A DNA stretch of 64,000 nt from positions 7,009,744 through 7,073,743 of the forward strand of contig OX637393.1 of assembly GCA_951799425.1 (NCBI GenBank). The letters are read 5' to 3'. Within the stretch, counting starts at the first letter, position 1; every line of letters starts with the position of its first letter. The translations under genes were made by a program, and so were the position numbers. Below are positions 10,217-46,109 of the stretch, one piece after another. Below the pieces are notes generated by a model. It was not told the DNA's origin, ran no database searches, and saw nothing but the letters and a program-made list of their open reading frames with translations. This DNA is from Ilex aquifolium. Its lineage: Eukaryota > Streptophyta > Magnoliopsida > Aquifoliales > Aquifoliaceae.

Positions 10217-11616
10217 GAACCAAAATATTATTTAGCAAATGATATATGCCATTGAATCAGTAGATCGCACTGGAAAAGTTTTATGGAACCGACTGATCTA
10301 GAAATCTACATGAATTTAGTAAGAAAAATTTGGTAAGGTATTTGGTAAGAGTAGTAAGGTTATCGAGTATAAGCTTTGCTATGTGACTAGCGGTGACCCT
10401 ACACATATGGAGGCCTTAAGAGAACATGTTGTATGAGGCTTCGTAATATTTAGCATAATAATATGGGTAGTACAAAATAATTATCAAGAATTAATATTCA
10501 TTAATTTTACAAAAAATTTAGGTTCGATGGAGCAGCAGTAGATGTTGAGAGTTGGATAACTCCATATCATGCTAGATCTAACTGTCCTTAGTAAAGTCTT
10601 GAACAAAATTTCAAAAGGCTATGCATCTATTCGGGTTACAATTTAAAATAATTAGGTAATAGACAATTAATTAGCTCATCAATTTTGATTGCAAGACATG
10701 AAACATCTACGGTTGGTATACGTATTCAAAATAGTAATATACAAAATACATAGCCAATTTTGACTAACAAATGCAGTATAAGACACAATTAGAACAATTT
10801 TAATCTAATACAATGATTTATTGCTCCATAATATAACAACCAAACAACCCCATAGTGTTAAGAGAAAATATATGTTTTCACATTTATCTAATAAGATAGC
10901 TAGAGACTTAAAACAAAAATTATATAATCCATAAACAATTAGATAGGCCCTAGGCAGCCACCTTAGTGCCTATGCCTCACCGACCCTATATGTGATTTAT
11001 AGGGCCAATAAGTGTGTATAATTTAGAACTAACAAAAAGAAATAAATGTTACACACAATACCAACCAAACCATTATTGCTCTCATTTGAAATTGTTGTCT
11101 CTCTTTTGCTAATCTTTCTTTTTTAATTTCTTCCATTTTTTTGTCAACAGTTTTGGCTAGATTATTTTCTGAATGAGTTGTGTGATCCAATGAACTTGAA
11201 CCATTGGGGTTGCAATTCCATTAGTTTGTCGATTTGTAAATGACCTTGCGGAAGTTTCACTTTAGTCTATTTAACATCTATTTTCTCAATATTTATTGAT
11301 TTCACATTACACCAAAATTCATATGAAAATAGACATTAGACGACGAAATAGTCATGTGTTGGGACAATGTGAAACCCAAAGGGGGAAGTTTGAAACGTAT
11401 TAACATAGTTGATGGGACAATGTGTTAGGCCCATGACCATTTTGGGTCAAAAATTACATGGTTGTTTAGTTTTGGTGTAGTAGGGGATAAACAATCCCCC
11501 TCCCCCCTCCCCCAAAAAAAGAAAAAAAAAATAAAGCAAAATTTGTCCAATTGCTTGAGAGAACAACGAATAATTAAAGCATTTATTAAACATTCTTTTT
11601 GTTTTGCATTTTGCAG
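10217..11616. other. Intergenic or intronic AT-rich stretch before LRR kinase copy 1
   Basis: No LRR, signal-peptide or kinase-type coding sequence is visible here. The last part (about 11500-11616), with its pyrimidine-rich tract and TTTTGCAG end, is the 3' end of an intron. The 5' exons of copy 1 are therefore not in this stretch. Confidence 0.55.
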
Positions 11617-25280: not shown

Positions 25281-25995
25281 TAATGCATACAATCATGCTT
25301 GAGCTACTTTATTTTTTCTAAGGGGCTACGCCAGTTTAAATACTCAAATTTAATTTCGAATATTACTAGGATTGGAGTATCAAATTTCAAGAATCAATCC
25401 TATCCCGAACCCCAATCTGGTTTAAATACTTGTGGTCATCCCAATTTAATGTAAAAGAAAGGTAAATATTGTTGGACAACTTTTTATTTTTCAACTCTCA
25501 CAGGGTTTATTTAACTACAAGAAATTTGCCTTTTAGCCGCGAAAATTATTGCGGCTAAATGCATAAAAATTGTCACTATATACTTTAGTGACAATATTTT
25601 TATTGCCACTAGGCCGCGGCAATATGTGTGTGGCTAAATCACTTAGCTATGACATTTAATTGTTGCCACTAAAAGTAAATTTTTTAGCCGCACCATGAAA
25701 AATGCCACTAAATGTGAAATCTTTAGCCGCCATAATTATTATAGCAAGTAAACTAAATTTGCCACTAAAATATACTATATCACCACTAAAAGTCCAATTA
25801 AAACCTGACTTTTAGTGACAACAATTAATTGCGGCTAAAAATATACATTTTACCCACAATTAAAATCACCACTAAAATTTGAAACATGATTTTTTGACAA
25901 CTTATTGTCGTTACTAATTAATACATTAAAATGAACAAAGAAACCTATCGCATATTTGAAAGAATTTATTTTTCAATATTTTCAAATTTCACGTA

Positions 25996-26960
25996 CCTTT
26001 TTTTTTTTTTTTTTGATTGAAATCAAGTATTACAAGAAGCAGATTTTACAAGAATCAAAACAATGAAAAGCCTAAAATTCAAGGCTTTAATCACTCCAAA
26101 AAAAATCAACCAATTTGTACAGTCTTCAATCCCCCTGTCCAGAGACATGAAGAGGCAGTATAACAGTCTACTTCCTTAAAACTTTGGTACCCTGTTGATC
26201 TAGCTGCTGCAGCTTCCTGGCTTGTGAACACCTACATCTCTGCAACACAGTGAACACCTACTGGTTTGTCCCAAATACAAGCCATGAAAGCAAAGAAGAA
26301 ACCCCACCAGAATCCACTTTCAAACCACAGTTGATTTCCATTAATTCAGGCAACCCTATCATCATGATCTGGGCAGAATGAGACCGAGGCACTGCCCACC
26401 TTACCAAAGATTGTCATTAGTTGCTTTAACACCTGACTCAATTGATTTCAACGGACTACCAGATCTGCTGTTTCATAGAGAATAGAAGATTATTAGAAGA
26501 TCGAGAAACTAACACAATGCAAGGGTCATTTCCAAGATGACTCAATCTCAACAATAAGTTCCAGTTTGCAATAGGAAAATGACAATCTTTCATGTCTTTG
26601 CATTTCCAGGAAAACCCCCTAAATGGGTACTGATAGTCCATTACATTACAGGCAGTGTTTGTTAAGGATTCCAGATAAAGTTTTGGAAACTGTACACTTT
26701 ACAAGATTGCCTGAACAATGTAATCAACTACAAAAACTTATTTAGAAAGGTTGTCCCCAACATTATAAAGCATATTTAACCAATCCCAAAACTTTAGCAG
26801 CACAGTGAACACCTACTGCTGATCTAGCTGCAGCACCTACTTGTTTCAAGCAAAGCTACACTGGGGTGTGTTTCACAGCAACTTCAGGGCAATGAATAGA
26901 AAGTATTTAGCAGCACATTTGAAACATCTAGCAACTAGGGATCTACGAAAACAGACTGAA
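25996..26960 (-). mobile_element. Poly(A)-tailed retroposon remnant (probable LINE 3' end), minus strand
   Basis: A run of about 20 T at 25998-26017 is the tail read from the minus strand. It is followed by GATTGAAATCAAGTATTACA, ACAAGAAGCAG and AAGGCTTTAATC, an order also seen near 34650-34760 inside the inner CACTA. No reverse transcriptase frame remains. The body has repeats of CACAGTGAACACCTACT near 26251 and 26793. Confidence 0.4.
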
Positions 26961-27022
26961 GCCAGTAAATAAACTTTCTTCTGCATAGAAAATTTTCTTT
27001 CATCTAAAAAACTGAATACTGA

Positions 27023-28014
27023 ACTAATAACACTTCAATACCTCCTCTGCATACTGGTTATTAGATCTTTCGTCTTTAGTCTTCGGAGGCGAGCCTTCCA
27101 AAGTTGTTTTCAGAGCTTTCACTGGTTTGTACCTAACATAAAAGTAAAGATATTATATATCAAGACTACATAAAAGTAAGATTACTAACCCATGAAATAG
27201 ATTTTTTCCAATTTAAGAGATCTTACCCTATCACAATGAAGAGAGGTAAGAATTTGCCCCGACTCTTTCATTTGCTGAAAATATGTGGTGAGCTAAGTTT
27301 GAAGCACGGCATGCACCTGTGTTTGTATCTCAACATGCATATTGGACTCTAAGGACTCTAGTCGCGAAGCTAAATCACTGTTTTCCTTCTCCAACGACTC
27401 CCAACGCATCCTATTTGTTTCAGCTTGCCTCTTCAATTCCTCATTCTCCTTCTCTAGTTGTGCACGGATGCGCTGTCCAGCTGTAGATGTTGTGGGCTTT
27501 GGACCAGCCCCACGACCACGTACATATCCTGATTTTTCCGGACCGAGCACTACTTCAAACCTCTGATCCTCAGTCATGGGGGTAGCTCCTTCCTCCATTG
27601 ATTGAGTCTAGCCTCTTAAGGTCGCTCTATATTTGGAAAGATTACAATCTATCAATTTAGCATTATGTAAAAAGATATTTCAAAGGAATTGAGAAGGATA
27701 GGATAACTTACATAGACTTCTCCCGATCTCTTGCCAGCCCAATCATTCCTCTTCATACTAAACTTGGTTGTTAACCACAGTTCCGTACGGTTAGGCTCCT
27801 CTCCAGTCTCGGGATCACGCTATATGCATTAACATTAATAGAAAAATTTTACATAAATATGCATGTATACATGTATATAATTAATCAGATAAGTGAAATA
27901 TACATTTAAAAAATAACTCACGCTATCGTAACTAATTCCAGCGAAACTCTTCGTCCCTGCAATATGACCCATGTCTTGTTTTGCTCGGTTCTCCTTGTTT
28001 CTTTCACTCATTTT
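27023..28014 (-). pseudogene. TNPA-type (Transposase_24 family) gene remnant of the outer CACTA
   Basis: Exons on the minus strand can be traced. 28014-27922 holds MSERNKENRAKQDMGHIAGT then KSFAGISYDS. 27819-27713 holds RDPETGEEPNRTELWLTT. About 27600-27300 holds VLGPEKSGYVRGRG then a Glu/Lys-rich predicted coiled coil. About 27134-27023 ends SNNQYAEEVLKCY and a stop. The phrases SFAxISYE, DPxTGxEPxRxEL and VLGPExSGYVRG are hallmarks of the second protein of plant CACTA elements, which in En/Spm binds subterminal motifs. Splice-like boundaries (TATAG acceptor, GTGAGT donor) are kept. The N-terminal part is missing: it lies beyond the deletion that joins it to the TNP2 remnant at about 28100. 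Confidence 0.7.
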
Positions 28015-28104
28015 CTGCATTCAAGAATTAAAAGTAAGTTTCAAGCTACCTGTCCAAATAACAGTAGCCATAATTAATTAATACACAAGCAGTCCAACAC
28101 AGAA

Positions 28105-28354
28105 ATTTGCTTTTGTTTTCCATTATCAAATTTATATCTAGGCTCTTTGCATTCTATACACTCTTGTTTATCTTTGTGCTCCTTCCAAAATAACATGCAG
28201 TCATTTTTGCAAGTATGAATCCTTGTATAGTCAAGCCCCATGTCACGAATGATCTTTTTAGCCTCATAATAGGAGCTAGGGAGTGTCTCACCATCAGGAA
28301 GTGCCTCCTTAAATAGCTCAAGCATCATACTAAACATTTTATTACTCACTCGAT
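28105..28354 (-). pseudogene. TNP2 transposase remnant, downstream part (outer CACTA)
   Basis: The minus-strand frame holds LELFKEALPDGETLPSSYYE, IIRDMGLDYTRIHTCKNDC and C-x2-C residues near ECIECKEPRYK. This is the segment that precedes the catalytic region in CACTA TNP2 transposases. It continues the frame of 36543-37047: if the 8.18-kb inner element and one TTA are removed, the codons meet as HLKVL then NRVSNKM. After GKQKQI the resemblance stops abruptly. The catalytic part is gone, so this protein could not transpose anything. Confidence 0.8.
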
Positions 28355-28377
28355 TTACACTACAACAAAAAGCATTT

Positions 28378-28915
28378 TTTGCGACGTTTTTAAATTTGTC
28401 GCAAATAGTTTACTATTAGCGACGATTTTTTAATTTCGTCGCAAATTTCAGTTTTGGTAAATTTTTTAGCGACGTTTTCAAAAAACGTCGCAAATAAACA
28501 TTTTACTTAAATAATAAATTTAAAAAATATCAATTTAATTGACTTTTAGCGACATTTTTAAAAAACGTCGCAAATAAATATTTTACTTAAATAAAAACTT
28601 TTAAAAAAATATCAATTAATTCACTTTTAGCGACGTTTTTAAAAAACGTCGCAAATACACATTTTACTTAAAAAAAACTTTAAAAAAAATATCAATTTAA
28701 TTGACTTTTAGCGACGTTTTTCAAAAAACGTCGCAAATAAACATTTTCCTTAAATAAAAAATTTAAAAAATATCAATTTAATTGACTTTTAGCGACGTTT
28801 TTCAAAAACGTCGCAAATAAAAATTTTACTTAAATAAAAAATTTAAAAAATATCATTTTAATTGACTTTTAGCGACGTTTTTAAAAAAAACGTTGCAAAT
28901 AAACATTTTACTTTA
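28378..28915. repeat. Left subterminal palindrome array of inner CACTA
   Basis: Seven units of about 80 bp each contain a palindrome GCGACG-T/A spacer-CGTCGC (28422, 28470, 28549, 28630, 28711, 28793, 28873). They are separated by A/T-rich filler like AAATATCAATTTAATTGAC. Such arrays are the expected binding sites of the element's own second protein. Confidence 0.8.
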
Positions 28916-28950
28916 ATAAAAAATTTTAAAAAAATTATCAATTTAATTCA

Positions 28951-30864
28951 CATGTTAATTTGAATGTTAATTTAATGAAATTGAAAGTCGATTTGATGAA
29001 ATTACATGTTAATTTGATGAAATTAAATGTCAATTTGATAAATCGAATGTTAATTTAATGAAATTGAAAGTCGATTTGATGAAATTACATGTTAATTTGA
29101 TGAAATTGAATATCCATTTCATAAATTGAATGTTAATTTGATGAAATTGAATGTCAATTTGATAAATTGAATGTTAATTTGATGAAATTGAATGTCAATT
29201 TGATAAATCGAATGTTAATTTAATGAAATTGAAAGTCGATTTGATGAAATTACATGTTAATTTGATGAAATTGAATGTCAATTTAATAAATTGAATGTTA
29301 ATTTGATGAAATTGAATGTCAATTTGATAAATTGAATGTTAATTTAATAAAATTGAAAGTCGATTTGATGAAATTACATGTTAATTTGATGAAATTGAAT
29401 GTTCATTTGATAATTTGAATGTTAATTTGATGAATTGGGTGTTAATTTAATGAAATTGAAAGTTTATTTGATTACTTTAAATGTTTAATTGAATGTTAAT
29501 TTGATAAATTGAATGTTAATTTAATGAAATTGACTGTCGATTTAATGAAATTACATGTTAATTTGATGAAATTGAATGTCCATTTAATAAATTGAATGTT
29601 AATTTGATAAATTGAATGTCAATTTGATAAATTGAATGTTAATTTAATGAAATTGAAAGTCGATTTGATGAAATTACATGTTAATTTGATGAAATTAAAT
29701 GTCAATTTGATAAATTGAATGTTAATTTGATGAAATTGAATGTCAATTTGATAAATCGAATGTTAATTTAAAGAAATTGAAAGTCGATTTGATGAAATTA
29801 CATGTTAATATGATGAAATTTAATGACCATTTCATAAATTGAATGTTAATTTGATGAAATTGAATGTCAATTTGATAAATCCAATGTTAATTTAATAAAA
29901 TTGAAAGTCAATTTGATGAAATTACATGTTAATTTGATGAAATTGAATGTCAATTTAATAAATTGAATGTTAATTTGATGAAATTGAATTTCAATTTGAT
30001 AAATTGAATGTTAATTTAATGAAATTGAAAGTCGATTTGATGAGATTACTTGTTAATTTGATGAAATTGAATGTTAATTTGATAATTTGAATGTTAATTT
30101 GATGAATTGGGTGTTAATTTAATGAAATTGAAAGTTTATTTGATTACTTTAAATGTTTAATTGAATGTTAATTTGATAAATTGAATGTTAATTTGATGAA
30201 ATTGAATGTCAATTTGATAAATCGAATGTTAATTTAAAGAAATTGAAAGTCGATTTGATGAAATTACATATTAATATGATGAAATTTAATGTCTATTTCA
30301 TAAATTGAATGTTAATTTGATGAAATTGAATGTCAATTTGATAAATCGAATGTTAATTTAATAAAAGTGAAAGTCGATTTGATGAAATTACTTGTTAATT
30401 TGATAATTTGAATGTTAATTTGATGAATTGGGTGTTAATTTAATGAAATTGAAAGTTTATTTGATTACTTTAAATGTTTAATTGAATGTTAATTTGATGA
30501 AATTGAATGTCAATTTGATAAATTGAATGTTAATTTAATGAAATTGAAAGTCGATTTGATGAAATTACATGTTAATTTGATGAAATTGAATGTCCATTTA
30601 ATAAATTGAATGTTAATTTGATGAAATTGAATGTCAATTTGATAAATTGAATGTTAATTTAATAAAATTGAAAGTCGATTTGATGAAATTACATGCTAAT
30701 TTGATGAAATTGAATGTTAATTTAATAAATTGAATGTTAATTTGATGAAATTGAATGTCAATTTGATAAATTGAATATTAATTTAATAAAATTGAAAGTC
30801 GATTTGATGAAATTACATGTTAATTTGATGAAATTGAATGTCAATTTAATAAATTGAATGTTAA
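28951..30864. repeat. AT-rich minisatellite of about 1.9 kb in inner CACTA
   Basis: Units of about 20-24 bp alternate between TGTTAATTTGATGAAATTGA, AGTCGATTTGATGAAATTAC and TGTCAATTTGATAAATTGA. These group into longer blocks of roughly 100-125 bp. At least five higher-order blocks are near-identical. The array interrupts the palindrome arrays on either side. Confidence 0.9.
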
Positions 30865-30869
30865 CTAGT

Positions 30870-31300
30870 TATTAGCGACGTTTTTATAAATCGTTGCAAA
30901 AAAGTGATTCCCTCCAAAATTTTTTGTGGCGGGAGAAACGGCTCCCAAATATTTTAAAGGTGGTTGGCTCGAAAAATTGAAGGAAGAGACATATTAATAT
31001 TATTTGCGACGTTTTTATAAATCGTGACAGAAGTCAAAATTTTATTTTTATTTTTGAATTAAATAAATAAGTATTAAATGAAATATTAATATTATTAGCG
31101 ACGTTTCTAGAAATCGTCGCAGAAGTGTCAAAACTTTATTTTTGAATCCTTAGTGGGAAGATGAAATAGTAATATTATTAGTGACGATTTTGTAAATCGT
31201 CGCAGAAGTCAAAATTTTATTTTTATTTTTAAATTAAATAAATAAGTATGAGATCAAATATTAATATTATTAGCGACGTTTTTTAAAATCGTCGCAGAAG
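30870..31300. repeat. Second palindrome array in inner CACTA
   Basis: Five units spaced about 85-130 bp apart contain GCGACGTTTNTANAAATCG(TCGC)-type palindromes (30876, 31008, 31099, 31183, 31273). They share filler such as AGTCAAAATTTTATTTTTA. Confidence 0.75.
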
Positions 31301-31389
31301 TCAAAATTTTATTCGCCTCTGAATAAACTTTTTTCCCCTTACCCAACTATTTTTCCCTCTTTCCCTCCTTCCCCATCGTTCCCTCTTCG

Positions 31390-31700
31390 TTTTCAGTGGA
31401 CACACACACACACACACACTCTCTCTCTCTCTCTCTGCCTCTCCCTGCCAGTCGAAGCCACAAGCACCCTGAAGGTCAGTTCATTATCGATCGTCGCCGC
31501 CTCCTCTCTCTCTCTCCATCGATTCACTCCACTACCGCCGCCTCCTCTCTCTCAGCCTCTCTCTTCATCACACCTCTCGGCATCGATGCGCCTCTCAATC
31601 GATTTTCGGAATCCAGAGCCGTCGAGCATGTCCGAGTGTTGTCCAAAGAGATCGATGGTCGCCAGGTTAGAAAGATTTTACATACATTTCTCTTTCAACA
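31390..31700 (+). other. CpG-rich leader-like fragment in inner CACTA, probable captured 5' end
   Basis: (CA)n(CT)n microsatellite sequence is followed by a CpG- and pyrimidine-rich stretch like a plant 5' UTR. A frame then contains LGIDAPLNRFSESRAVEHVR and ends at a donor-like GCCAG/GTTAGA near 31664. The composition is unlike the AT-rich arrays around it. The source gene is not recognised. It lies upstream of the chromomethylase fragment in the same orientation, so a chimeric transcript is conceivable. Confidence 0.4.
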
Positions 31701-32036
31701 CCAATAACGACCGTAGTTATAGGCACACATATGGTATATGCCATGTATGTTGTTCCAATTGGTCATGTTTGAGCTTGGATTGTGTTTGATTTAAGGAAAC
31801 CCGCACAACCTTTCCCCTCTCTGATTTTGTCTCGCCTACCCATACACAAATTTACTCTTCGTCATACCACAGCCTCACCCTGCACATGAAGTATTTGTTG
31901 AAATTTCTAAGAGCTCCTCCTCGTCAACCACTGCCCATTTTGTGTCAATTTATGGTTCCAATTATCTAATCCAAGGTTTAGAGATATAAAACTGGGGCAA
32001 ATTGTATTGATTTTAAATTAAATAATCAAAATTTTG

Positions 32037-34278
32037 CTGACATAGTTAAGTTTGCTGGGGGATTTCTTGGAAGATATGCTTTGGGTCGTCTTATTGGAAT
32101 GAATTATCAAGCACGGCTAGGGATGATGGCAGCCGGTGCTTATGGCCTTCCACAATTTCGCATGCGAGTATTCATGTGGGGTGCTCGTCCTTCAGAGGTG
32201 ATTTCATTATTTTGTTTAATTTCAGACTCTTGATTTTGTGATTCATACTAGTTGCCTATTTTCACTTGCAGAAATTGCCCCAATATCCATTACCCACGCA
32301 TAATGTCGTTGTGAGAGGTGTGATTCCTACTGAATTTGAGGTATGATAGATCCTTCATGTTTCATGTTTCATTTATCTTTCTTATTTTTGTCATGGATTA
32401 CATTATAAACTTTGCATATGCATGCAGTCAAACACGGTTGGTTATGAAGAAGGTCATAAAATGGAATTGGAGAAGGAACTCTTGCTTGGGGATGCAATAT
32501 CAGACCTTCCTCCAGTATGTAAAATCATGTTACAAAGGTTTTCCTTGATATTTAATACGACTCAGGTTTTTATTTGGTTTTCTTTTAATCGATTTTTTAT
32601 TATTTAGGTGGATAACGATGAGGCACGTGATGAAATACCATACGAGGGTGAACCCAAGACAGAATTTCAGCACTTCATTAGATTAAGAAGGGTGAATTAG
32701 TTGTGTTAAGTAGCTTAGTGGTCTAATGACATGAAGAAAATGGTGTTCACATGTAGAAAGTACATCATATGTTGCATGGCAGGTAAGTCTGTCAATGAAT
32801 TTGATTTTGCTTTGTATCTAGTTTGATACTTTTATTAGCATTTGATAAGGGTTCCTTGATTGGATTATTCTAAAACAACTCAAGTCTACTATGTTATGTT
32901 AACAAATCAGATTTGATATAGGCCAAACTAATCTAGAAACAATCCCACCCAAAAGATTTTAAGTATGTTGAATGTGTTTTAAATGATATCTACATCCGAT
33001 TCCAAATAGCTAGTGGGAGTTCCCCTCATCCTCTCTCTTATAATTTTTTTTGTGTAGTTGTAGTTTTTTTCATCTGTTCCTCATGATAATACACATGCAG
33101 TTTTCTTCCTCTTTGTCATCTCTCCTCTCCCTTGGCTTGTTGGTTTGAGAAATTTTTCTTTTGCTTTTTTAGTTATTGCATTTTTGAATAGTGGATTAGA
33201 TTGTATAATTAGATTGCAAATGTGCTCATTTGTATTGCACAAATGTACTTGTACTACCTTGCAAATCATCCCCAATAGTGATTAATGTGTAAAAATTGAA
33301 ATGAATGTGTGGCTCTTTTATTTCTCCATTCACCCGTAGCATTGAAATTGTGGTATAAAGCTCTTTATGAGTTTGATTTGAGTTCGGTAATCCCAAGATT
33401 GTGTTTCTTTACTTGAAACAAATCATTGTGTTTGAAAAAGGGGGCAAGACATCGATTTTATTGGAATGTGTGGTAATGACAACTTTTTTGGGATTTGGTT
33501 GGCAAGAAATAACAGAATTTTCAAAGGCATGGAAGAATATGTGGAGTTGTTATGGAAAAGAATCAAGTTTTTTTGCTACCTTTTGGGCATTGATGTCAAA
33601 AGAGTTGGAAGACAGCTTGTAGTTAGATGAAAATATTGATAGTTATTGGTTGATGTATATTTTCAACTCTGTTTTTCCTTTTTTTTTTTGTATTGTATTA
33701 GATATGAGGTGGATTTCTTATCCACTACATTGTACTTTTTTACTTTGTATTTCATTGTAAGTGATGAATTTTTTTTTTGGGGTTTTCTATCAAAAAGGTG
33801 CTATGAGCACTATGGAGCCTTTGTTTTCGTTTAGGGTTGGTAGAGGTTTCTTGGTCTACTTTAAACTTGCACTAGTTTTTTGAACTCTATAAATCCTAGG
33901 TTTAAGTTGCAATTAGAACTTTTGTTTTGTGTAATAGTATTGTCGTGTTCCAAGTCTAAGTCATTGGCTGTGCAAATGGCTATTAGTTATTGCATGTTTA
34001 CAAAGTTGAATGGGACCCAGATATTCCAAGGGTGTATCTGCCTTCTGGGAAGCCATTGGTATGATTTGCTTTGTAATTTTCAATCTTTGTATATTTTTAT
34101 GCTAGTTGTCGATTGAAAGTGATTATGTTGTCATTAATGCTAGGTACCTGATTATGCAATGACTTTTGTAAACGGAAGTTCATCAAAGTACGGAGTGGTT
34201 GGTTTGTGTTTCATAATTCTGTGAATAAATGCTAAATTTCAATATGTACTCATTTGCAAAATTGTGCAGACCGTTTGA
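32037..34278 (+). pseudogene. Captured chromomethylase (CMT3-like DNA methyltransferase) fragment with introns
   Basis: The intact family methylates non-CG cytosines in heterochromatin. Recognisable exons: about 32037-32197 ([20 protein letters not shown]; then [14 protein letters not shown], holding the QxRxR of motif VIII), 32272-32340 (KLPQYPLPTHNVVVRGVIPT), 32428-32514 (NTVGYEEG...LGDAISDLPP), 32608-32700 (DEIPYEGEPKTEFQHFIRLR, then a stop), 34002-34058 (KVEWDPDIPRVYLPSGKPL) and 34144-34187 (VPDYAMTFVNGSSS). A piece reading KPF starts at 34270. GT-AG boundaries are kept, so DNA rather than mRNA was captured. The BAH and chromo domains, AdoMet motif I and catalytic Pro-Cys motif IV are absent. 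The exons between 32700 and 34000 are lost or replaced by a LINE scrap. No active enzyme is possible from this. Confidence 0.85.
33440..33660 (+). mobile_element. LINE ORF2 C-terminal fragment within inner CACTA
   Basis: One frame reads FGIWLARNNRIFKGMEEYVE then LLWKRIKFF. Another carries on as FFATFWALMSKELEDSL and a stop. This is the typical last segment (W-x-ERNxRIF...W) of plant L1-type polyproteins, with one frame shift. It sits between two groups of chromomethylase exons. Confidence 0.6.
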
Positions 34279-34319
34279 TATACTCTTTTTATTAGTTAGA
34301 TATACTCTTGGGAAAGCTG

Positions 34320-34444
34320 TAACAGAAAACTTTATTTTACGATAAAGTGCAGAAGTTGCTGGATGAGAATGCCAGCAGAAAGTCAAAACAACAGGTGGGG
34401 TTGAGAAATGACATGTTCCATGTCAAACCATCTTCTGATGGTCA
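34320..34444 (+). other. Exon-like open segment of unknown origin in inner CACTA
   Basis: After an AG near 34325, a frame reads KTLFYDKVQKLLDENASRKS then KQQVGLRNDMFHVKPSSDGQ. It stops at a donor-like CAG/GTATAAC (34444). It looks like one exon of a captured gene. I do not recognise it. It may belong to a second source gene. Confidence 0.35.
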
Positions 34445-34454
34445 GGTATAACAT

Positions 34455-34455
<1 letters not shown>

Positions 34456-34502
<47 letters not shown>
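34456..34502. repeat. (CT)n microsatellite
   Basis: About 23 uninterrupted CT repeats. Confidence 0.95.
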
Positions 34503-34507
<5 letters not shown>

Positions 34508-34647
34508 TTTGAAACGTATGCTATGAATTCTAAGTTCTGTTTTTAACTTGCAAGATTACTTGAGGTGCATTCTTTACTTTGCAAGATTTCAGTTCTTAAC
34601 GAGTTCATCTTTGATAACATTGATCTTTTCCTGGATCTTTGTTATAT

Positions 34648-34800
34648 CTACACTTTTTTTTTTTAAAGAAAGAGGGAAATTTTTATCCAAAATTCAAGCA
34701 TTTACAAGAAGCAAAGAACAAAGTTCTAGAAAAAATTGAAAGTTGGCTTTAATCCTTCAATGGATTAAACCAAATCTAATTACAGTATGAGATACTCAAT
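34648..34800 (-). mobile_element. Retroposon 3'-end scrap, minus strand
   Basis: A T-run is followed by ATTCAAGCATTTACAAGAAG, then AAAGTTGGCTTTAATC-like wording that matches the order at 26017-26100. This marks two copies of one poly(A)-tailed family. Confidence 0.4.
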
Positions 34801-35909
34801 TTTTAAAAAATAGATCCTGCTTTGCAGCACACCAAACACCAAACAGCTCAATGCAGAAGCAACACAGCACAACACAAAGTGCACTATGCAGAAAAGCACA
34901 ACACAGAAAGCACTATGCAGCAACCACATCACAGAGCATGCCAGTGCATGTTTGATCCAGCTGCATCAGTACTTTGCACCAAAACCATTCTGCATGGAAA
35001 CAATTTCTTAACTATGTATTTTTTCAGTTTTGCCAAATTAGCTTTTGATTTATGTGATGAACTCTCAGGTTCAGGAAGCATGGCTTCCAGCTTGGCTTAC
35101 AGTCCATTGTGTTCATTGACAGGTAAATTTTTATCCTCTGCATTGACAAATCTAAACAAAAACATGATAAAAGTAGAAGGCAAAATGCGTTAACCCAAAA
35201 GTATTTTTTTACCATCTTAAATAAAGTATGAGTTCAGCATCTTAAATTTGTCACAAAAATAAATGATGATTCCATCACAGACTCTCTAATGGTGTTATAT
35301 TGAAAGGAATTAACAAGAAACGTAATTTAGCATTAATCAATTATAGGCAATTTTGGAGATTTGAAAAAATATTTTGCTTTAATGTAATAATAATATATGA
35401 ATATGATTTAGTTGAAATGTACCCCAAGAAAATTTGAATGTCTTTGTTGTTCATGTTTATTCAGAATAAATGAAAACTATTGTGTTTATATCATATAATA
35501 ATTATTTTTTTAAAGTTGTGCTCAATTGTTCTGATCTGACCTCAGTCTGGGCTGGTACTGATCTGTTGAGCTTGGAGATGGTATTTCAAGGCATGTAGTT
35601 GGACTGCTGGAGCTGTTCAAGTTTAAGAGACATTAAATGTAATTAGAGATGGTTTAAATCCTCTTGAAGGATAAAGCCATTTTTTCAATTTTTAGAACTT
35701 CTTGTTCTTTGATTTTTGTAATTAATTCTTTTTGGAAATAAAATTTTGTTTTTTTTTACAAAGATGTGAAATGTATGTTGAATGGAAAAGTTGTGAAATG
35801 TATTAATTTTGTTAGTTTTGTATTGAACACGGATATTATTGGTGTACAGGTGAAAAAATTTGTTGGAATATTATTTTTTATGAATTATTTTAAAAAAAAA
35901 TGAACTTTT

Positions 35910-36530
35910 TTGCGACGAAATTAAAATCGTCAGGAAAAATTGTAAGAATAATCTTTTTCACGACGATTTTTATACGTCGCAAATGTATTTATTAATTTTT
36001 TTGTTTATGTAAAATTATTTGCGACGTTTTTTTTACGTCTCGAAAAATTAATTGAATTATTATTTTTTAAATTTTTATTTTTTAAAAATTATTTGCGACG
36101 ACTTTTTTACGTCGCGAAAAATTAATTAAATTATTATTTTTTACATTTTTATTTTTGTATAAAATTATTCGCGACGATTTTTTTACGTCGCAAAAAAATT
36201 AATTAAATTATTATTTTTTTACATTTTTATTTTTGTAAAAAATTATTTGCGACGATTTTTTTACGTCGCGAAAAATTAATTAAATTATTATTTTTAATTT
36301 TTGTTATGCTGGTGGAATAGATTTTAGCTACGTTTTTTTGGATTTTAGCGACGTTTTTTTTCGTCGCAAAATTTTTTTTTTTGCGATGAAAATATATTTG
36401 CGTCGCAAAATACTTTCTACGACGAGGCTATTGCGACAAACACGCGACGAAAAAAAACGTCGCAAAAACCAATTGGCGACGATTTTTTTTAATTTAGCGA
36501 CGAAAAAAAACGTCGCAAAAAACGATTTTT
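35910..36530. repeat. Right subterminal palindrome array of inner CACTA
   Basis: About nine palindromes such as GCGACGATTTTTTTACGTCGC, with filler AAAAATTAATTAAATTATTA, in units of about 65-75 bp. The last ones, GCGACGAAAAAAAACGTCGC, abut the terminal CACTACAACAAAAA repeat. Confidence 0.8.
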
Positions 36531-36542
36531 GTTGTAGTGTTA

Positions 36543-37047
36543 GTACTTTCAAGTGCAATAACTTCAGAGTGAATGACAACTTGGTGAACTTCTTGCAACC
36601 CGGATACAACTGTTGGTTAGCATCCTTTAATAATCTCATAAATTTATTTGTTTCCCAATCAGGCACTGCATTCCCAGTACTGTTTGAATTCTCTCCTCCC
36701 CAAGCATTCACAGTTGCCGCAATGTAATGTTCATAAATCATTTCTTGCAGGTCATCGTGATCATTTTCATCTTCTTCGTCAAGCTCATCATCATCATCAT
36801 CGCTGCTCAACTCAAACTCTTCCCCATGAAATACCCACGTAATGTAATCTTTAACTATACCATGGTAATACAAATGAGTTTCCACATCATCATGAGTATG
36901 AAAATAAACGTTATTGCATTTAACACATAGACAACGTATCATTTTCCCAGGTTCAGTATTGGCAAAAGCGAACTCCATGAATTGTTTAACTCCTTCACGA
37001 TATTCAGGGCGTCGTCTATCCCTAATCCCCATCCAAGTCTTATCCAT
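36543..37047 (-). pseudogene. TNP2 transposase N-terminal exon of outer CACTA
   Basis: The minus-strand ATG at 37047 opens MDKTWMGIRDRRRPEYREGV, the Transpos_assoc domain that begins CACTA TNP2 proteins. The C-x2-C and H residues of that zinc-binding-like unit follow (CLCVKCNN...THDDVETHLYYHG), then an Asp/Glu run, then WETNKFMRLLKDANQQLYPG. The frame runs into the inner element at 36542. The start is chosen by family resemblance. Confidence 0.85.
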
Positions 37048-39083
37048 GTGTCCCTACCCTATCCCGAAGAATAAGAGGAATCCCTGTAGTAAATTAACAA
37101 AAACCAATTTTAATACGAACCAATTTTAATGCACGTACAGCCATTCTCATAGTCATAGACAATTTTAATGCACATATAACCATTCTCATAGTAATGTTAG
37201 ATCATGCCCTCTTTTAGAACAAAAGCATAGAAAGAGCACAAGTTTAAGGCACAAAACATCTGCACTATCTGGTCAAAATCCCAAAACTAGAGCACACAGA
37301 AAACCCGGCTCACGGAAATACCTCAATAAAGGATTACTATGGCTCTCTTGCTGCTCACCTTCTATCTACCAATATGTCAGTACGGCAATAGAGGCAATCA
37401 CCACAAGTCCGAACCCAAGGATACAAGCCAATCAACACAAGACAAGTAAGATGCGGATATACCTTTCTCGGATCGAATGATTTTCTAACCACAGTAAACG
37501 CTTCCTACGGCAACATTGAAGCAACTTGCAAAGTATTATGCAATCACAGAAAAGAATTGATACTCTATTTCCATAACTAATCAGAAAAGGAATCATAGTA
37601 ACAAAAAAGAAAACATTAATCCATGAACTCTAACTCTAAGCTACCATTAATCAAAGGATAGAAATAGACTAAATTAATCATCATTTAATACTAAGTTTAG
37701 AACATGTCACAAATCAAAGTCCTAAAAGTCATTTTAGTACCGGGTCGATGATAGAGTTTCATGTAATTTCCTATATTTGGTACAAATAACACCATATAAT
37801 ACGTGCTATTAACCCAAAATAACAAAAATTATTCTTATAACCAGGTGGTCAACATAACCCATATTTGTTTCGATATGTGTTTGCATCATCCATTGATTGC
37901 TCGCACGCATCAAAATCAAAACCAAACTTCAATGTTGACAGGCTTATCGTCTCTTTTCTAAAGGAAAATTCAGAGAGGTATCACTAGTCGATTGGGAAAC
38001 CCATCAAGGTTATAAATTTGTATATCGAGATGTATGTGTGAGTGCGTGTGAGAGACGGACAGGACAGGACAGTCTGGAAGTACAGGGACAGACATTTAAA
38101 AAAAATTACAATGATAAAAATTATAAAAATGTGGAACATTGCGTCGGCCTAAGGATCATGTTTACAGGAATAGATTCTATTTTTGGTGTCAAAATCTAAA
38201 AAAATGTGGAACATTGCGTCGGCCTAAGGATCATGTTTACAAGAATAGATTCTATTTTTGGTGTCAAAATCTAAAAAAATTATAGAGGTGTTATCCTTTG
38301 TACGCTGCGCTCTTGCCTCGCTCAACAGAAAATTTGCAATTATTTCCTCTGAATTCTCAGCCATAGTGTTTCTCTCCCTTGTCTGTGCAAGTTCAGGAGA
38401 GTTAAAATTTTGGATTAATTGACTTAAACAAGGAATTAATGAACCATTGATCTGAGTCAGGATATTTGACTCTTCAAAATATGTGATCATAAGACCTTAT
38501 ATGATTTTAACAAGGCAAAACAACCATCACTTTTAACAAGATATCAGATCACAAAATCACTGACAAATGCAGACAAACGCCATCCGAATTCAGCAACAGC
38601 GCAACATTTAAATAGTCTAACACATTAGTTAGTAATAAACTTTCTACCGATAAACTAGAAATCAAACTGAATAACAACAGATTGGAACAATAAAGAAACA
38701 AAGGCATCAACTGATTTCATCAAAATAGTCATCTGTTTAGCTAATTTACCGAAACAATTAGACAAATGGGTAAAGGAATCTGGTTGCAGAAAAACAAACA
38801 CAAAAAACACAAATCAATGCTCTATAGAGAACAGAGAAGCAAAACAGAGAGTAGAGAGAGGAGCTTACTAATTATTTATTTAGATTTGCTCTGCAAAACA
38901 CAAATTAATAGCTTCGTCTTCTTCAGATCTGGTCTGCAATCATCGAGAGGTTAATAGAGATAAGGCTTTGTGCCCTAGCCGATCACTGAGCTCGTGTGTG
39001 AGATAGAGGTCGAGAGGTCGAGAGGTCAAGAGGTCGCGAGGCCGCGAGAGAGAGAGGGGAGGGCCAGTCTATGAGAGAAAGAA

Positions 39084-39132
<49 letters not shown>

Positions 39133-39164
39133 GTGAGTGTTGAGAATCAGCTGCAGTAAAAAGA
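37048..39164. other. 5' region of the outer CACTA, non-coding
   Basis: This is upstream of the TNP2 start, on the minus strand. It contains a 75-bp tandem duplication (38127-38276) and a (GA)n tract at about 39081-39129. No coding exon is recognisable. Confidence 0.5.
38127..38276. repeat. 75-bp tandem duplication
   Basis: GTGGAACATTGCGTCGGCCT at 38131 recurs at 38206 with one base difference in the 75-bp unit (ACAGGAATAG versus ACAAGAATAG). Confidence 0.9.
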
Positions 39165-41699
39165 AGTGTAGTGACTAAAAATAATTGTTTATATAGATTA
39201 TTAGTGATAAAAATAAATTGTTGCCACTAAATTATTTTTCCATCAAGAATTAATGACAAATAGTTAGCTTTTTAGCCATGACAATAAAACTGTCACTCAT
39301 TAAATTTATTATATTATATATAGTGACAATAATTATTTTTTGACTAAAAATTTAAATTTAATTAGTGACTAAATTTAAATTGTTGTCACTAAATATTTGG
39401 AATTAGTGGTGAATTAATGATGTGTTTTTTGCCGCAACATTCAAATTGTCACTAACTGAATATACTACCATATCTCCAGTGACAATAATAATTTTTCATC
39501 ACTAGTTACATATCTTTAGTGGTGATAAATAATTATAATCACTAAATAATTTGAATATCATGTCTTCAGTGGCAATTATAATTTTTTGTCATTAAAGATA
39601 TGTATTTAGTGACAACATTTTTAGCTGCAATTTAAATATAGCGGCTAAAAGTGATTTTTCTTGTAATGTTTGGTTTGTGTACTAGTGCGTAAGATTCAAC
39701 TAAATTTGTTTCAAGATTACTTTATATTAGGTTCATATTATGAAATTTTTGGCTGCTGAACTACATATTTGGTAGAAACTAATACAATATTTGATGGTCT
39801 TAAACTAATTTTTCTTTAAAGGACTAGATGAAACCTTTTTTAGATGAAAACAAGTGTGACCGATTGTGTTTTTTATATTACCGACTCTTGATAGTGGTGG
39901 TGTCATTACTATGATCAAAATAGTATTCTTGACATGAAGCTTCCCTCTGGCATGTATCTTAGTCACCATCTTTCAACAATCAAGTCTTCTCTGCTGCGTG
40001 AGTCCATATTCCAAACTTAACACCCTCATGAAGAAATTCATTTTTCTCTTTTTTGCCACACTTTCGTGGGCAAATAGTTTCATGGCTTGCTTTGCAAGGG
40101 CTGAAACTAACTTAGACTCCGATCAATCAGCTCTTCTTGCTTTTAAAGCTCAAATCAGGTTTGACCCTCAAAACATTCTGGTAAAAAATTGGTCCACCAC
40201 CACCCCAGCTTGCAATTGGATTGGCATCTCTTGGCGTTCGTCACGAAAGAGTCACAGCCTTGAATCTTCCCAACATGGATCTTAATGGCACCATTTCTCC
40301 ATATCTAGGAAATCTCTCATTTCTTGCTTCCCTCAGCCTCAGTAACAACACTTTTCACGGCCATGTCCCCGAGGAGTTGGGTCATTTGCGTCGATTGAAT
40401 GAAATTGATTTGGGATTCAACTCTCTTAGCAAGGAGGTTCCATCATGGTTTGGAATCCTACCAAAACTTGAACTCTTGCTCATGCATTATAATAGTTTCA
40501 TTGGTGTTATCCCGCCTTCCCTTGGCAACATCACTAGCCTTGTGGTGATGCGGGTATCGGGCAATCATCTACAAGGACATTAGACATATTCCAAAAGCAA
40601 TTGGTAACCTTTCTAGCTGGAAAATACTGAGATTGGGAAATAACCAGCTTTCTGGTTCCATACAATTCATCTTCAACATGTCTTCATTGGAACAAATTAT
40701 TCTTACATATAATATTTTATCGGGTCCCATCCCAAGAGATATATGTAGTCAACTACCTGATGTCAAAGAAATCTATCTTGATTCTAATCAGTTTCAAGGT
40801 CTTCTCCCATCCAATTGGTACAGATGTGGGAAGCTTCGGATTTTATCATTGTCCTATAACAAATTCACAGGCAGCATACCTTGAGGAATCGGCAACTTGA
40901 CCATGCTGAAGAGTTTGGATCTTAGAGACAACACACTGAAAGGTAATCTTTGTATAATGTGTCAGTGTTATTGTAGCATGTTCATGTGTGCTTACAAACA
41001 AGGTGTTAGCGATGGCCACAGGCTTGCCCAAACAATTGCATATAAGCTTAGTTACATATTGTGTTAATTTGTCGACAAAATTCATTATAGTCATTAGATT
41101 GACCGTGGGTCCCATCAAATGTTAAAATTTGGTGGTATTACTCAAAGCAGTATATGGAAACCAATTGCAGCACCCGAAACAAGGATCTGCCACTTCGAAC
41201 GTCGAGTCCACCACCACAAACTTATCAACAAAACATAATAGACTCCCATGTAGTGCTTCCCAAGAACGTAAGATTCCGATAATAGAAACTAACTACTCAT
41301 GATAACAGAATACATAAATATTTTGTTAGCTTTGGTTTAATCTCCAACAATATATACAAAAAGATACTAAGAGGAAGAAGCGTATGGGCCACATTTTGCA
41401 TATTGCAGGCGAAATCCCACATGAGATAGGCGATCTGAACTTGGAGGAATTATCCATGGCGAAAAATGGACTCGTCGGTCACATACCATCTTCTATTTTC
41501 AACACCACTTCTTTAAAGTTCCTTAATCTTGATGACAATAACTTGGCAGGGAGTCTACCATGGGATATGTGCTTGCATGCTCCTAAGCTCGAGTTAATCT
41601 ATATTAACCGTAACAAGGCAGTCACGGGAGGCATTCCCACAAGTATTGGGAACTGTACTTCGCTCATGGTCCTATATCTAAATTATCTCAATTTGACAG

Positions 41700-42744
41700 G
41701 TATAACTTTTATCTTTTTCTTAAACAAACGTTTAGATTCCTGTTCTTTGTGTAATTAACATTTTTATATCTTTTTGGCATTTCATAGTCAATAATATTTA
41801 AAAAAATACTCACGTGTCTTGAAAATCATATGATATCTTTATTTATGTTTATCAAAAAATGATACCCAATTAACTACAGTCGATGGATTGAATTAAGTAA
41901 GATCCCTATCGCATTTCTCGATGTTAAAGCGTACTAAATTAATCTATTAAATTTAACTATTAGCTAAAAAAGTAATATTGATGTCGTATTAAATATTACC
42001 CTAACCAATAAGACAAAAAATATTAATCATACAATTAAATCTTATTTTATTTTCTTTCATCATTGAGTGTTTTATAATCTTTTCAAGACTGATAGGCGGG
42101 TTGTCAAGTCAATGATGCGGACCAATTTATTCCAATCAATTAATTTAACTAAGTAATTATGTGATTGGAGCTTTCTAGCATGTTTAAGCAACTAAGCAAT
42201 CAACTTATTTTAATCAAACAAGTTAACAGTTTTAGGTGGTGGTAGCTTCTGGGGAGTTCATCATATATATGTAATGTACAGTAGTTTAGTCTCTATGGAT
42301 TGAAAGAGTGTTGAGATTGGATCCATAAGCTAAACGGGTATAGTAGAACTACATGAGTTATAAAGGTTGGCCTTAACTAGCCCGGGTCACTGGGTTGACC
42401 AACTTGGCTAGATTAATCAATTTTTTTTTCTTAATTGTAAAATTAAATAGTCATTCCTTACATGATTAGGAGTATCATGAATATGGCATTGATAAGATAA
42501 TTGGCTATAAGTTAATAGTCAAACTTGGTAAGTTTTAAATTTAATTTTGGGCTTCTTTGATTAGTGATAGTCAAATTACGATCTAACAATACGTATAAAA
42601 AGTATATACCTAAAGGTATTGGGCATAAATTCCATCTTCATGTTATATATATATATATTTCATCTTCATAAATTCCATCTTCATTTCTCTAATTTCACTC
42701 TAAAATTGAACACGAGTAACCGTGTGCAGGACTACTAGTTCATC

Positions 42745-42816
<72 letters not shown>

Positions 42817-42957
42817 GATAGCATTAACTTACTTTTTTTTTTTTACATTTTCAGGTGCTATTCGACAAGAAATTGGCAATCTTAAAAATTTGTGTATACA
42901 TATATACAGAGAGAGAGAGGATAGCATTAACTTCCTTTTTTTTCTTTACATTTTCAG
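41700..42957 (+). other. Second intron of LRR kinase copy 2
   Basis: The donor is GACAG/GTATAAC and the acceptor ATTTTCAG/GTGCTATC. The phase matches the acceptor before exon 11617 of copy 1. The 3' end holds TA and GA microsatellites and a 103-bp duplication of the acceptor region. Confidence 0.7.
42855..42957 (+). repeat. 103-bp tandem duplication of splice acceptor and exon start
   Basis: CATTTTCAGGTGCTATTCGA (ending intron at 42854) recurs as CATTTTCAGGTGCTATCCCA (42957). Each copy is preceded by a GA tract and GATAGCATTAACTT. The upstream copy runs into TGTATACATATATACAGAGA after AATTTG. Confidence 0.85.
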
Positions 42958-44971
42958 GTGCTATCCCACAAGAAATTGGCAAACTTAACAATTTGAGTGA
43001 TTTATCCATGGGTTTCAAAAAAAAAAAAAAACCGTCTCATGGGTCCAATTCCAATCGCAATTTTCAACATCACAACACTGAAATTCATATTCCTTGAGAA
43101 CAATCATCTTTCAGGCACTCTTCCATCAAGTATGGGCATTTGGCTACCTAATCTTACAGAAATATATCTTGGATGGAATAATTTGAACGGAATTGTTCCC
43201 GACACTATCTCAAATGCTTCTAGAATCACCAAAAATAAATATTTCGGTGCCAACCAATTCTCTGGTACACTACCCAAATCATTGGGTAGCCTAGAACTCC
43301 TTGAAGATCTTGTGTTGCTAGGTAACAACTTTACTAGAGAATACTCATCTATGGAGTTAACCTTCTTTACTTCTTTGATAAATTGCAGAAAACTAAGGGT
43401 ATTGAGCGTATCTAGAAATCCTTTCAATGGCATTCTTCCAGTTTCCATTGGCAATCTCTCCACTTCTCTTTATACTCTCCATGCAAGCCATTGTAAAATT
43501 AAGGGGAACATTCCTAATGAGATCAGCAATTTAACCAATTTGGAATTCGTGGACCTTGATCACAATGACATAGATGGATAGATTCTGCCGACAATCAAAG
43601 AGTTGTGGAAACTTCAAATTTTGCATCTTGAACAAAACAAAATACCAGGATCTATTCCGACTGGTGTCTGCCATTTAAGGAACATGGGCTTTTTAGATTT
43701 GAGCAAAAATGAGTTTTCTAACTCTATGCCAACATGCTTTGAAAATATTACTTCTCTAAGATACCTCTATTTGGATTCAAATAAATTAACTTCCAGCATA
43801 ACCACAAACCTATGGAGACTCAAAGATCTTTTGGAGTTGAACTTGTCTTCAAATTCTTTAACCGGGTATATAGAACCAGAAATTGGAAGGCTTAAGGTTG
43901 TGACAAAAATAGATCTTTGGAGGAATCGGTTATCAGGTATTGTCCCTAGCAAAATTGTAGGCCTACAAGGTCTGTCGATTCTATCATTAGCACATAAAAG
44001 ATTGCAAGGACCCCTACTTGAGTCACTTGCAAAATTGGTAAGCCTAGAGTTTTTGGATTTATTTCATAACAATATCTCTGGAACGATTCCAAAGTCCTTA
44101 GAGGCGCTCTTGCTTCTTAAATACATCAATGTATCTCACAATAAATTAAGAGGAGAAATTCCAAATGGTGGACCTTTTGCAAACCTCATTTATTAGTCTT
44201 TTTTGTCAAATGAAGATTTGTGAGGTCCACCTAGGTTGCTAGTGCCTCTCTGCAAGAGTAGTTCTCTTAAAAGATCAAAGAATAAAAGAATGCTTCTAGC
44301 TGCATATATCTCGCTGGCAGTTGGATCTACGATTTTGGCCTTGGCCTTGATATTCTTTTTGATCAAACAACAAAGGAGAAGTAATGTTCCCCATGAAAAT
44401 GATTTGTTACCTGCAATAACCCATGGAAGAATTTCATACTACGAACTTCGACGTGCAACTCACGAGTTCAGTGAAATCAACTTGCTTGGCAAGGGTGGCT
44501 GTGGTTCAGTTTACAAAGGAATTCTTACGGATGGGACGCATTTGGCTGTAAAAGTATTCAATTTGCAACTAGAAGATGCATTCCAGTACTTTGATGCAGA
44601 ATGTGAAGTATTGTGCAACCTTCGCCACCGAAATCTTACCAAAGTTATCAACAGTTTCTCTAATCTTGATTTCAAAGCAATAGTCCTTGAGTATATGCCC
44701 AATGGAGGCCTTGAGAAGTGGTTGTATTCCCATAACTATTTCTTGGACATCTTGTAAAGATTAGATATAATAATAGATGTCGAACGTGCATTGGATTATC
44801 TCCACCATGGCTACTCGAGTCCTGTGATCCATTGTGACTTAAAGCCTAGCAATGTCTTGTTAGATGAACATATGGTTGCACATGTTAGTGATTTTGGCAT
44901 TGCAAAATTACTGGGTGAGGAGAGTACTACACTAACCAAGACTCTGGCAACATTGGGGTATATTGCACCAG

Positions 44972-45112
44972 GTGACGCTTCTACCTTTTTAATTAATACC
45001 TTTTTTTGCATTTGGATTCTCTTTACAACTTTGGCTTTTTTTTTTTTTCAATATAATCTCGTACAAAGTGTAAAGTTCCTTACAAAAATTATAATTTTGT
45101 TGATGAATGTAG
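44972..45112 (+). other. Kinase-domain intron of copy 2, length 141, open in frame
   Basis: Same position as 13616-13738 of copy 1 (ACCAG/GTGACG and TGTAG/AGTACGG). The length is again a multiple of three and no in-frame stop is present. Confidence 0.8.
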
Positions 45113-46109
45113 AGTACGGATTGGAAGGATTAGTCTCTACAAGGTGTGATGTTTACAGCTATGGCATTATGTTGATGGAGACTTTTACAAGGACAAATCC
45201 CTGTGATGAAAAGTTCACTGGAGATTTGAGCCTCACGAATTGGGTGAATGATTGCCTACCAAATGAGATAATCCAAGTTATAGATGCCAACTTAGTAATG
45301 CCAGAAGATGAATACTTGACTCTGAAGGAGCAATGTGTATCATCCGTATTGGAATTGGCTTTGAAATGCTCTACAGAATCACCTAAAGAGAGGATTTGCA
45401 TGAAAGTATCGTAGCTCTACAAAAGATTAGACTTCAATTTCTGGCAAAGTGTGAAAGGCCTTGACACATGAAAGTATTGTTCGACATTATCGTATAAATG
45501 CAAAGTAATATAACTGCTCACTCAAGCATGAGTCTAGACTTGCAGTAAAAATTCTATATGCTAACATCTTGATGTTGTTGCCACAGGTTGCAAGGTTTGA
45601 CATGTGGAAGTTGCAGGAGTTACTGCCAAAAATGTGTGTTGTAAGATAATAATTAAGATTTATTGGTCGTCTAAAGTGAAGGTCATGGAAATGTACTTTT
45701 GAAGTCTAAAACTGTGGCATGATCTATCAAGTCATCAATTTTTTGGCTAATCCATTGTTGTTGATTATTCCTACTCGAGTGATTTGGCTATTAATGTTTA
45801 GAGGGAGGTGGGTGCGCCACAACACAATCAAAAGGATTTTTAGGAAAAATCACCATTTAGAAAAAGGATTGAGCAAGGTCGGAGTGAAGGTCAAGTGGAA
45901 GAGAGGATACTCCATGAAAATAACATGGCCATAGACTCTGGGGAGACAAGCATTTACTACAAGAGGGAGTCATAGCAATTATAACTCGTGTGATTCGCAG
46001 TTTCAGAAAACCAACTCTCAGAAGAAAAAAGTCACTTCCGAAGCGCTCTCATTTCAAGTAGAATAAATATTGTATGTGCCATTAGCTGTAAGTTTTGCAT
46101 GTTGCAGAC

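Follow-up and report, generated by a model that had tools for sequence, protein, structure and literature searches.

We describe here a CACTA transposon of holly that carries a piece of a host chromomethylase gene together with its introns. The window is the whole stretch of 64,000 nucleotides that was analysed (contig 3:7009744-7073743), and the searches covered a genome of 103 contigs and 800,232,872 bases. The element is complete, with both terminal inverted repeats intact and a TTA duplication on either side (Table 1), and the terminal repeats and the 3-bp target-site duplication place it in the CACTA (EnSpm) superfamily. Intact CACTA ends had been predicted for it and are indeed present; the extent originally given to the find (32037-34278) is close to that of the chromomethylase homology, although the whole element reaches far past those positions on both sides.

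Table 1. The window element, its chromomethylase cargo and the gene that it interrupts (positions within the window).
Feature	Coordinates	Strand	Remarks
Complete non-autonomous CACTA element, 8,182 bp	28358..36539	+	Terminal CACTACAACAAAAA (from 28358) and TTGTAGTG (up to 36539); TNP2 frame restored on joining the flanks
Target-site duplication TTA, left copy	28355..28357	.	
Target-site duplication TTA, right copy	36540..36542	.	
Left arm	28358..32027	+	Subterminal GCGACG repeats, an A+T minisatellite and a second group of GCGACG repeats, followed by an exon-like stretch
Captured chromomethylase genomic fragment	32028..34277	+	Introns kept, internal deletions
Exon 9, 3' part	32028..32197	+	170/330 nt; PCQ motif half lost
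Exon 10	32272..32340	+	69/69 nt
Exon 11	32428..32514	+	87/87 nt
Exon 12	32608..32689	+	82/88 nt; donor site gone with the common 471-bp deletion
Exon 14	34000..34058	+	59/105 nt; exon 13 missing
Exon 15	34144..34187	+	44/44 nt
Exon 16	34270..34277	+	First 8 nt; end of the captured stretch
Right arm	34278..36539	+	Common to sister elements without the chromomethylase piece
Interrupted TNP2 gene, N-terminal part	36540..37047	-	Transpos_assoc, E 2.7e-23
Same TNP2 frame, continuation across the element	28074..28354	-	No Pfam match of its own

When the element and one copy of TTA are removed, the flanks join into one uninterrupted TNP2-type frame on the minus strand. This fixes the borders of the element and demonstrates that it inserted into a TNP2 exon of an older CACTA, in antisense orientation to the interrupted gene. 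The older, degraded host element (25513-39668) ends in AACTACAAG and TTGTAATG and is flanked on both sides by TTT, its subterminal repeats differ, and its minus strand carries the TNP2 N-terminal part and a coiled-coil frame; no transposase core was seen in its long frames. LRR receptor-kinase-like genes, partly broken and named by eye from their frames, flank the nested CACTAs at 11604-14085 and 39998-45414.

None of the nine stop-to-stop frames of at least 75 aa within the window element matched a transposase family, and in a Pfam search eight of these nine frames were without a family while the remaining one gave a methylase match below the cut-off. With up to two mismatches allowed, the motif at the 5' end of the element has 417 + 413 genomic occurrences, compared with 0 + 0 for a reversed control pattern; the 417 + 413 are counts of ends and not of elements, because the two ends of one element can both match. 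The A+T minisatellite of the left arm (approximately 28950-30870) has units of 20-21 and 41 bp and is present with other lengths in two further elements (C5 and C3:26.18M, below), and the exon-like stretch at approximately 31329-31667 is common to other elements. The right arm has an exon-like stretch of its own at 34355-34447 (KLLDENASRKSKQQVGLRNDMFHVKPSSDGQ), which the sister elements have as well; 31 residues from it gave no Pfam match, and partial matches to it lie at C1:54935848, C3:39407124, C10:1590436 and C3:11172036.

The sequence between the two arms matches contig 4 in four blocks at 96.6-98.2% DNA identity, introns included, and the match goes far beyond chance. The central claim of the original prediction, that pieces of a host chromomethylase gene sit together with introns inside a CACTA element, is thereby borne out, with the parent gene in the same genome. 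At least six exon-like pieces had been proposed, and six of at least 21 nt are found (170, 69, 87, 82, 59 and 44 nt) together with 8 nt of a seventh exon. The first four pieces translate into 132 residues, whose best matches are the PDB chains 7ubu, 9mvy and 4fsx (E 9.4e-49), the last of which we take to be maize ZMET2. The window copy is nevertheless unable to make a methyltransferase, because exon 13, the PCQ half of exon 9, the exons before 9 and the exons after 16 are missing. If three changes next to the deletion are left aside, five of the six single-copy exonic changes replace a residue, and we reject a protein-coding role of the cargo on account of the lost motifs, the broken exons and these seemingly unconstrained changes. 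The stretch at 33240-33800 corresponds to part of parent intron 12; it has many matches of 67-78% across the genome and looks like an old repeat in the donor gene.

The donor locus on contig 4 is an open gene with GT-AG borders and 17 exons, counted from the BAH domain on and thus exclusive of the first exon or exons upstream, with a C-terminal stretch containing IQVGNAVAVPVARALGY further downstream. Its BAH, Chromo and DNA_methylase domains all score above the Pfam cut-off, and among PDB chains it scores highest against 9mvy (836 bits), less than one bit ahead of 7ubu and 4fsx. A paralogue on contig 16, in whose projected exons no stop codons were seen, differs from it with dS 0.405, dN 0.060 and dN/dS 0.15, and the parent is intact and constrained. 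The prediction had called the captured gene CMT3-like. That it is a chromomethylase follows from the three domains, and on sequence similarity it is probably of the CMT3 type, although identities to the ZMET2-type chain (81/109 and 45/80 for the contig-4 gene, 80/107 and 42/81 for the other chromomethylase gene, on contig 13) separate CMT3 from CMT2 weakly. A Pfam DNA_methylase search of the genome gave 15 matches, two of which lie within elements that carry the cargo. Part of contig 4:24729249-24729719 matches other loci at 77-87%, and a repeat therefore sits directly after parent exon 12.

Among the 59 fragment matches listed, those of at least 97% fall in the window, in the contig-4 donor and in three more elements, C5:39.55M, C20:13.35M and C3:26.18M. 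The others are mostly of 67-78% and represent the intron 12 stretch at further sites; the contig-16 paralogue is listed at 70-88%, and a single match of 77% lies inside the contig-13 gene. The C5 carrier (8,094 bp, flanked by CTA/CTA) and the C3:26.18M carrier (8,521 bp, flanked by TAT/TAT) are complete, and the C20 carrier has its 5' end and a right arm that stops at the counterpart of window position 34685. The 3-bp target-site duplication expected of a CACTA (EnSpm) element is thus found in three of the four carriers, the fourth being 3'-truncated, and the element has transposed with its cargo to several sites. With no transposase detected in its long frames, a host gene as cargo, a donor elsewhere and presence at several sites, the window element is a Pack-CACTA. 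A frame adjoining the truncated carrier (contig 20:13347600-13350750) resembles what is presumably a hydroxycinnamoyl-transferase (BAHD).

The deletions within the cargo are informative about its history. Contig-4 bases 24729249-24729719 (471 bp) are missing exactly from all four carriers, and because the contig-16 paralogue has the exon sequence concerned, the gap is a deletion in the carriers that points to one capture. A second gap (contig-4 24730263-24730758, 496 bp) is exact in three carriers and lies within a larger gap in C20, and could be either a deletion in the carriers or a later insertion in contig 4. A third deletion is common to C5 and C20, and the remaining ones are private to single carriers. 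No carrier has any exon before 9 or anything past the start of 16; the lost exons differ from carrier to carrier, and only 73 nt of exon 12 is exon sequence retained by all four. Divergence is 0.38-0.86% between carriers and 1.2-2.2% between carriers and contig 4, fixed differences separate the carriers from the parent at 48 sites, and a tree sets the carriers apart from contig 4 (support 0.86) without resolving the branching order among them. With assumed rates of 2.5-7e-9, intron distances place the split from the donor approximately 1.5-5 My ago and the separation within each of the two carrier pairs that were dated at 0.3-1.2 My ago. We also note that 46 of the 117 singleton changes in ten right-arm sequences are C>T or G>A, at 0.1055 per G or C site compared with 0.0205 per A or T site for changes in the opposite direction, an excess that fits methylated DNA and is also expected from a general A+T bias.

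Two sister elements without the cargo, C2:11.03M and C13:13.66M, indicate what the capture probably replaced. Both have the right arm in common with the window element from 34277 onward, the left arm is common to C2 as far as 32035 and past it and to C13 as far as 31799 only, and other sequence occupies the slot between the arms; the comparison covered their 3' ends. The junctions follow from aligning C2, C5 and C20 with the donor. At the left junction there are six bases of microhomology, TAATTG, between the donor and the older cargo of the sister element, and at the right one donor CCGTTTG is followed directly by the arm with almost no microhomology; the sequence there allows two readings, one with two changed bases and the other with a short templated filler. 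The right junction is common to the window, C5 and C20. In C3:26.18M both junctions have been lost, and in the window copy the left one, so that for these two carriers a single capture rests on the common deletion. The donor is uninterrupted and unscarred across the two capture borders, which lie in an intron and inside exon 16, and the captured span on contig 4 is 24728352-24732303, approximately 3.95 kb. The junctions and the unscarred donor fit template switching during gap repair, as far as sequence can tell. A hint of other gene cargo comes from C19:16821680-16825086 (L063), where a frame from approximately 2641 holds a ubiquitin carboxyl-terminal hydrolase exon (UCH, E 2.5e-10) some 0.7 kb past a copy of the left-arm stretch; because no element end was found in this 3.4-kb locus, it is no more than a hint.

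We propose, with a probability of roughly 0.7, that the window element is a Pack-CACTA that acquired its chromomethylase piece in a single event of gap repair or template switching, and that the cargo is a passenger. A gap in an existing element would have been repaired by copying approximately 3.95 kb of the intact contig-4 gene, in one event that replaced the older cargo approximately 1.5-5 million years ago, after which the element would have spread to further sites while deletions eroded each copy. The cargo would make no enzyme, would be silenced along with the element and would serve neither element nor host, with any small RNAs from it arising as by-products.

Such small RNAs could matter to the host without being of use to the element. 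The capture of introns as well as exons provides long identical stretches for targeting at the DNA level, and 24-nt siRNAs directed against the elements might also methylate the body of the donor gene, at a cost to the host and not as a device of the element, as has been reported for captured genes in maize. However, the parent is without sign of decay, and we regard this collateral silencing as unlikely, if the most credible of the alternatives considered here.

Two alternatives concern the capture itself. Pack-CACTAs of Arabidopsis have been proposed, from mobilisation followed in real time, to arise where two nearby elements lose their inner ends and are mobilised jointly, and a neighbour insertion of this kind could in principle have picked up the chromomethylase piece instead of gap repair. 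The donor is unscarred at both borders, however, and the microhomology at the left junction is shared with a sister element's older cargo, and we consider this route slightly less credible again. It is decidedly doubtful that the donor was another allele or a lost close paralogue instead of the contig-4 allele itself. The 13 of 19 polarisable fixed differences that are changes on the contig-4 side would suit such a donor, but relative-rate tests with the four copies are not significant (chi-square 0.08 to 2.0), and there is no nearer copy among the matches listed for the assembly. Gap repair from the contig-4 gene remains the reading that we favor for the origin of the cargo.

The original prediction went further and raised the possibility of anti-silencing, in which the cargo would give rise to small RNAs that reduce the parent chromomethylase, so that non-CG methylation of CACTA elements is relaxed. 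There is a precedent in rice, where CACTA elements carry pre-miR820, which is derived from OsDRM2, and miR820 lowers OsDRM2 (PMC3459959). Exonic 21-mers matching the parent mRNA exactly number 311 of 391 in the window copy, 453 of 571 in C5, 418 of 571 in C20 and 129 of 129 in C3:26.18M, and for the window copy this identity is high enough for small-RNA targeting of the parent; because only 22 of its 391 are shared with the contig-16 paralogue, suppression would be partial. BLAST searches for an inverted copy, with low-complexity masking, two scorings and a plus-strand control, gave no minus-strand chromomethylase match in any of the four carriers. An unmasked permissive search gave one match in C5 and at least three in C3:26.18M, all of 60-63%, and these pair the element arms with an A+T-rich donor stretch (24729376-24729587) that is missing from the carriers.

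Foldbacks were scanned on both strands with 30 shuffles each, in 180 windows of 140 nt for the window copy (31301-35900) and in 70, 64 and 22 windows for the chromomethylase parts of C5, C20 and C3:26.18M respectively. The lowest z-scores around the window copy (-3.49 and -3.25) lie at 34701-34890, outside the chromomethylase part; within that part the lowest are -3.03 for the window copy, -3.44 for C5, -3.39 for C20 and -2.02 for C3:26.18M, and C20 also has a value of -3.20 on the sense strand. An antisense-strand fold recurs at about the same place in intron 12 (33600-33800 or its counterpart) in the window copy, C5 and C20, the three carriers that retain this place, and could be taken to favor anti-silencing. 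Folds at the lowest z-scores are nevertheless weak (-15 to -28 kcal/mol per 140 nt), and neither a miR820-type foldback precursor nor an inverted copy of the cargo was found in any of the four carriers. We do not read the intron 12 fold as a miRNA precursor, given the A+T-rich intron and the low energy.

Other observations also argue against anti-silencing. The exon cargo common to all four carriers is limited to the 73 nt of exon 12, the parent remains open, intact and constrained (dN/dS 0.15), and sister elements fill the same slot with other sequence. We consider that the anti-silencing reading is improbable, and that a neutral passenger, which the prediction had itself allowed for, is the better reading of the cargo. 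One specific form of anti-silencing deserves mention. Since the window copy is antisense to the interrupted TNP2 gene, read-through of this and other interrupted genes could give antisense RNA. Paired with sense RNA started in the left arm, it might form double-stranded RNA, reduce the contig-4 chromomethylase and favor CACTA movement. We think this more improbable still, but if true it would be a second, independent attack by CACTA elements on host DNA methylation, directed against a chromomethylase instead of DRM2.

A chimeric or dominant-negative protein made from the cargo is scarcely credible: several splice sites survive, and the fragments in soybean Tgm-Express1 are spliced into chimeric RNAs (PMC1947982), but exons 9, 12 and 14 are broken and exon 13 is lost in the window copy, the losses differ per carrier, the exonic changes look unconstrained, and the frames are without a Pfam family apart from the sub-cutoff methylase match.

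The holly element adds to the Pack-CACTAs, a known kind, although its cargo is unusually pointed. Its CACTACAA ends, its 3-bp duplication, the lack of any transposase found in it, the host gene pieces inside it and family material from more than one locus are as described for Pack-CACTA and other Pack-TYPE elements of Arabidopsis, rice and maize (PMC8903248), but that account, in the parts considered here, favors neighbour insertion and re-mobilisation, whereas the holly junctions suggest template switching between existing arms. The rice miR820 elements, of which Nipponbare has five copies, likewise contain captured exon and intron sequence of a host DNA methyltransferase gene and are present in several copies, and they differ in that a foldback gives rise to the miRNA that lowers OsDRM2 (as outlined in PMC3459959); in holly the capture concerns a chromomethylase gene, and the longer fragment is in one orientation and without a clear foldback. 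Soybean Tgm-Express1 is similarly a CACTA-type element with host gene fragments including introns, although these are five unrelated fragments spliced into a host transcript and do not come from a silencing gene (PMC1947982). In Zymoseptoria tritici transposons multiplied a DNA methyltransferase gene, but RIP is reported to have disabled every copy, the original among them, with loss of methylation (PMC6710886), whereas the holly parent is intact. If anti-silencing were true, the holly element would also resemble VANDAL transposons in being a DNA transposon that counters host methylation, although VANDAL is described as acting through an encoded anti-silencing protein, VANC (PMC13317346), and the holly cargo makes none. 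The top matches of a literature search on methyltransferase or chromomethylase pieces in transposons and on gene capture included none in which a CACTA element had captured a chromomethylase.

The capture by a transposon of a gene from the machinery that silences it offers a test of whether gene capture is offence or noise. Rice miR820 and OsDRM2 are the known case, and the capture of a chromomethylase in holly is a second, in which carriers can be compared directly with non-carriers because the donor, cargo-free sister elements and exact junctions are all present in one genome. If the cargo is a passenger, it shows the ease with which indiscriminate capture yields suggestive cargo; and the question of anti-silencing becomes one that can be tested in another plant and for another enzyme.
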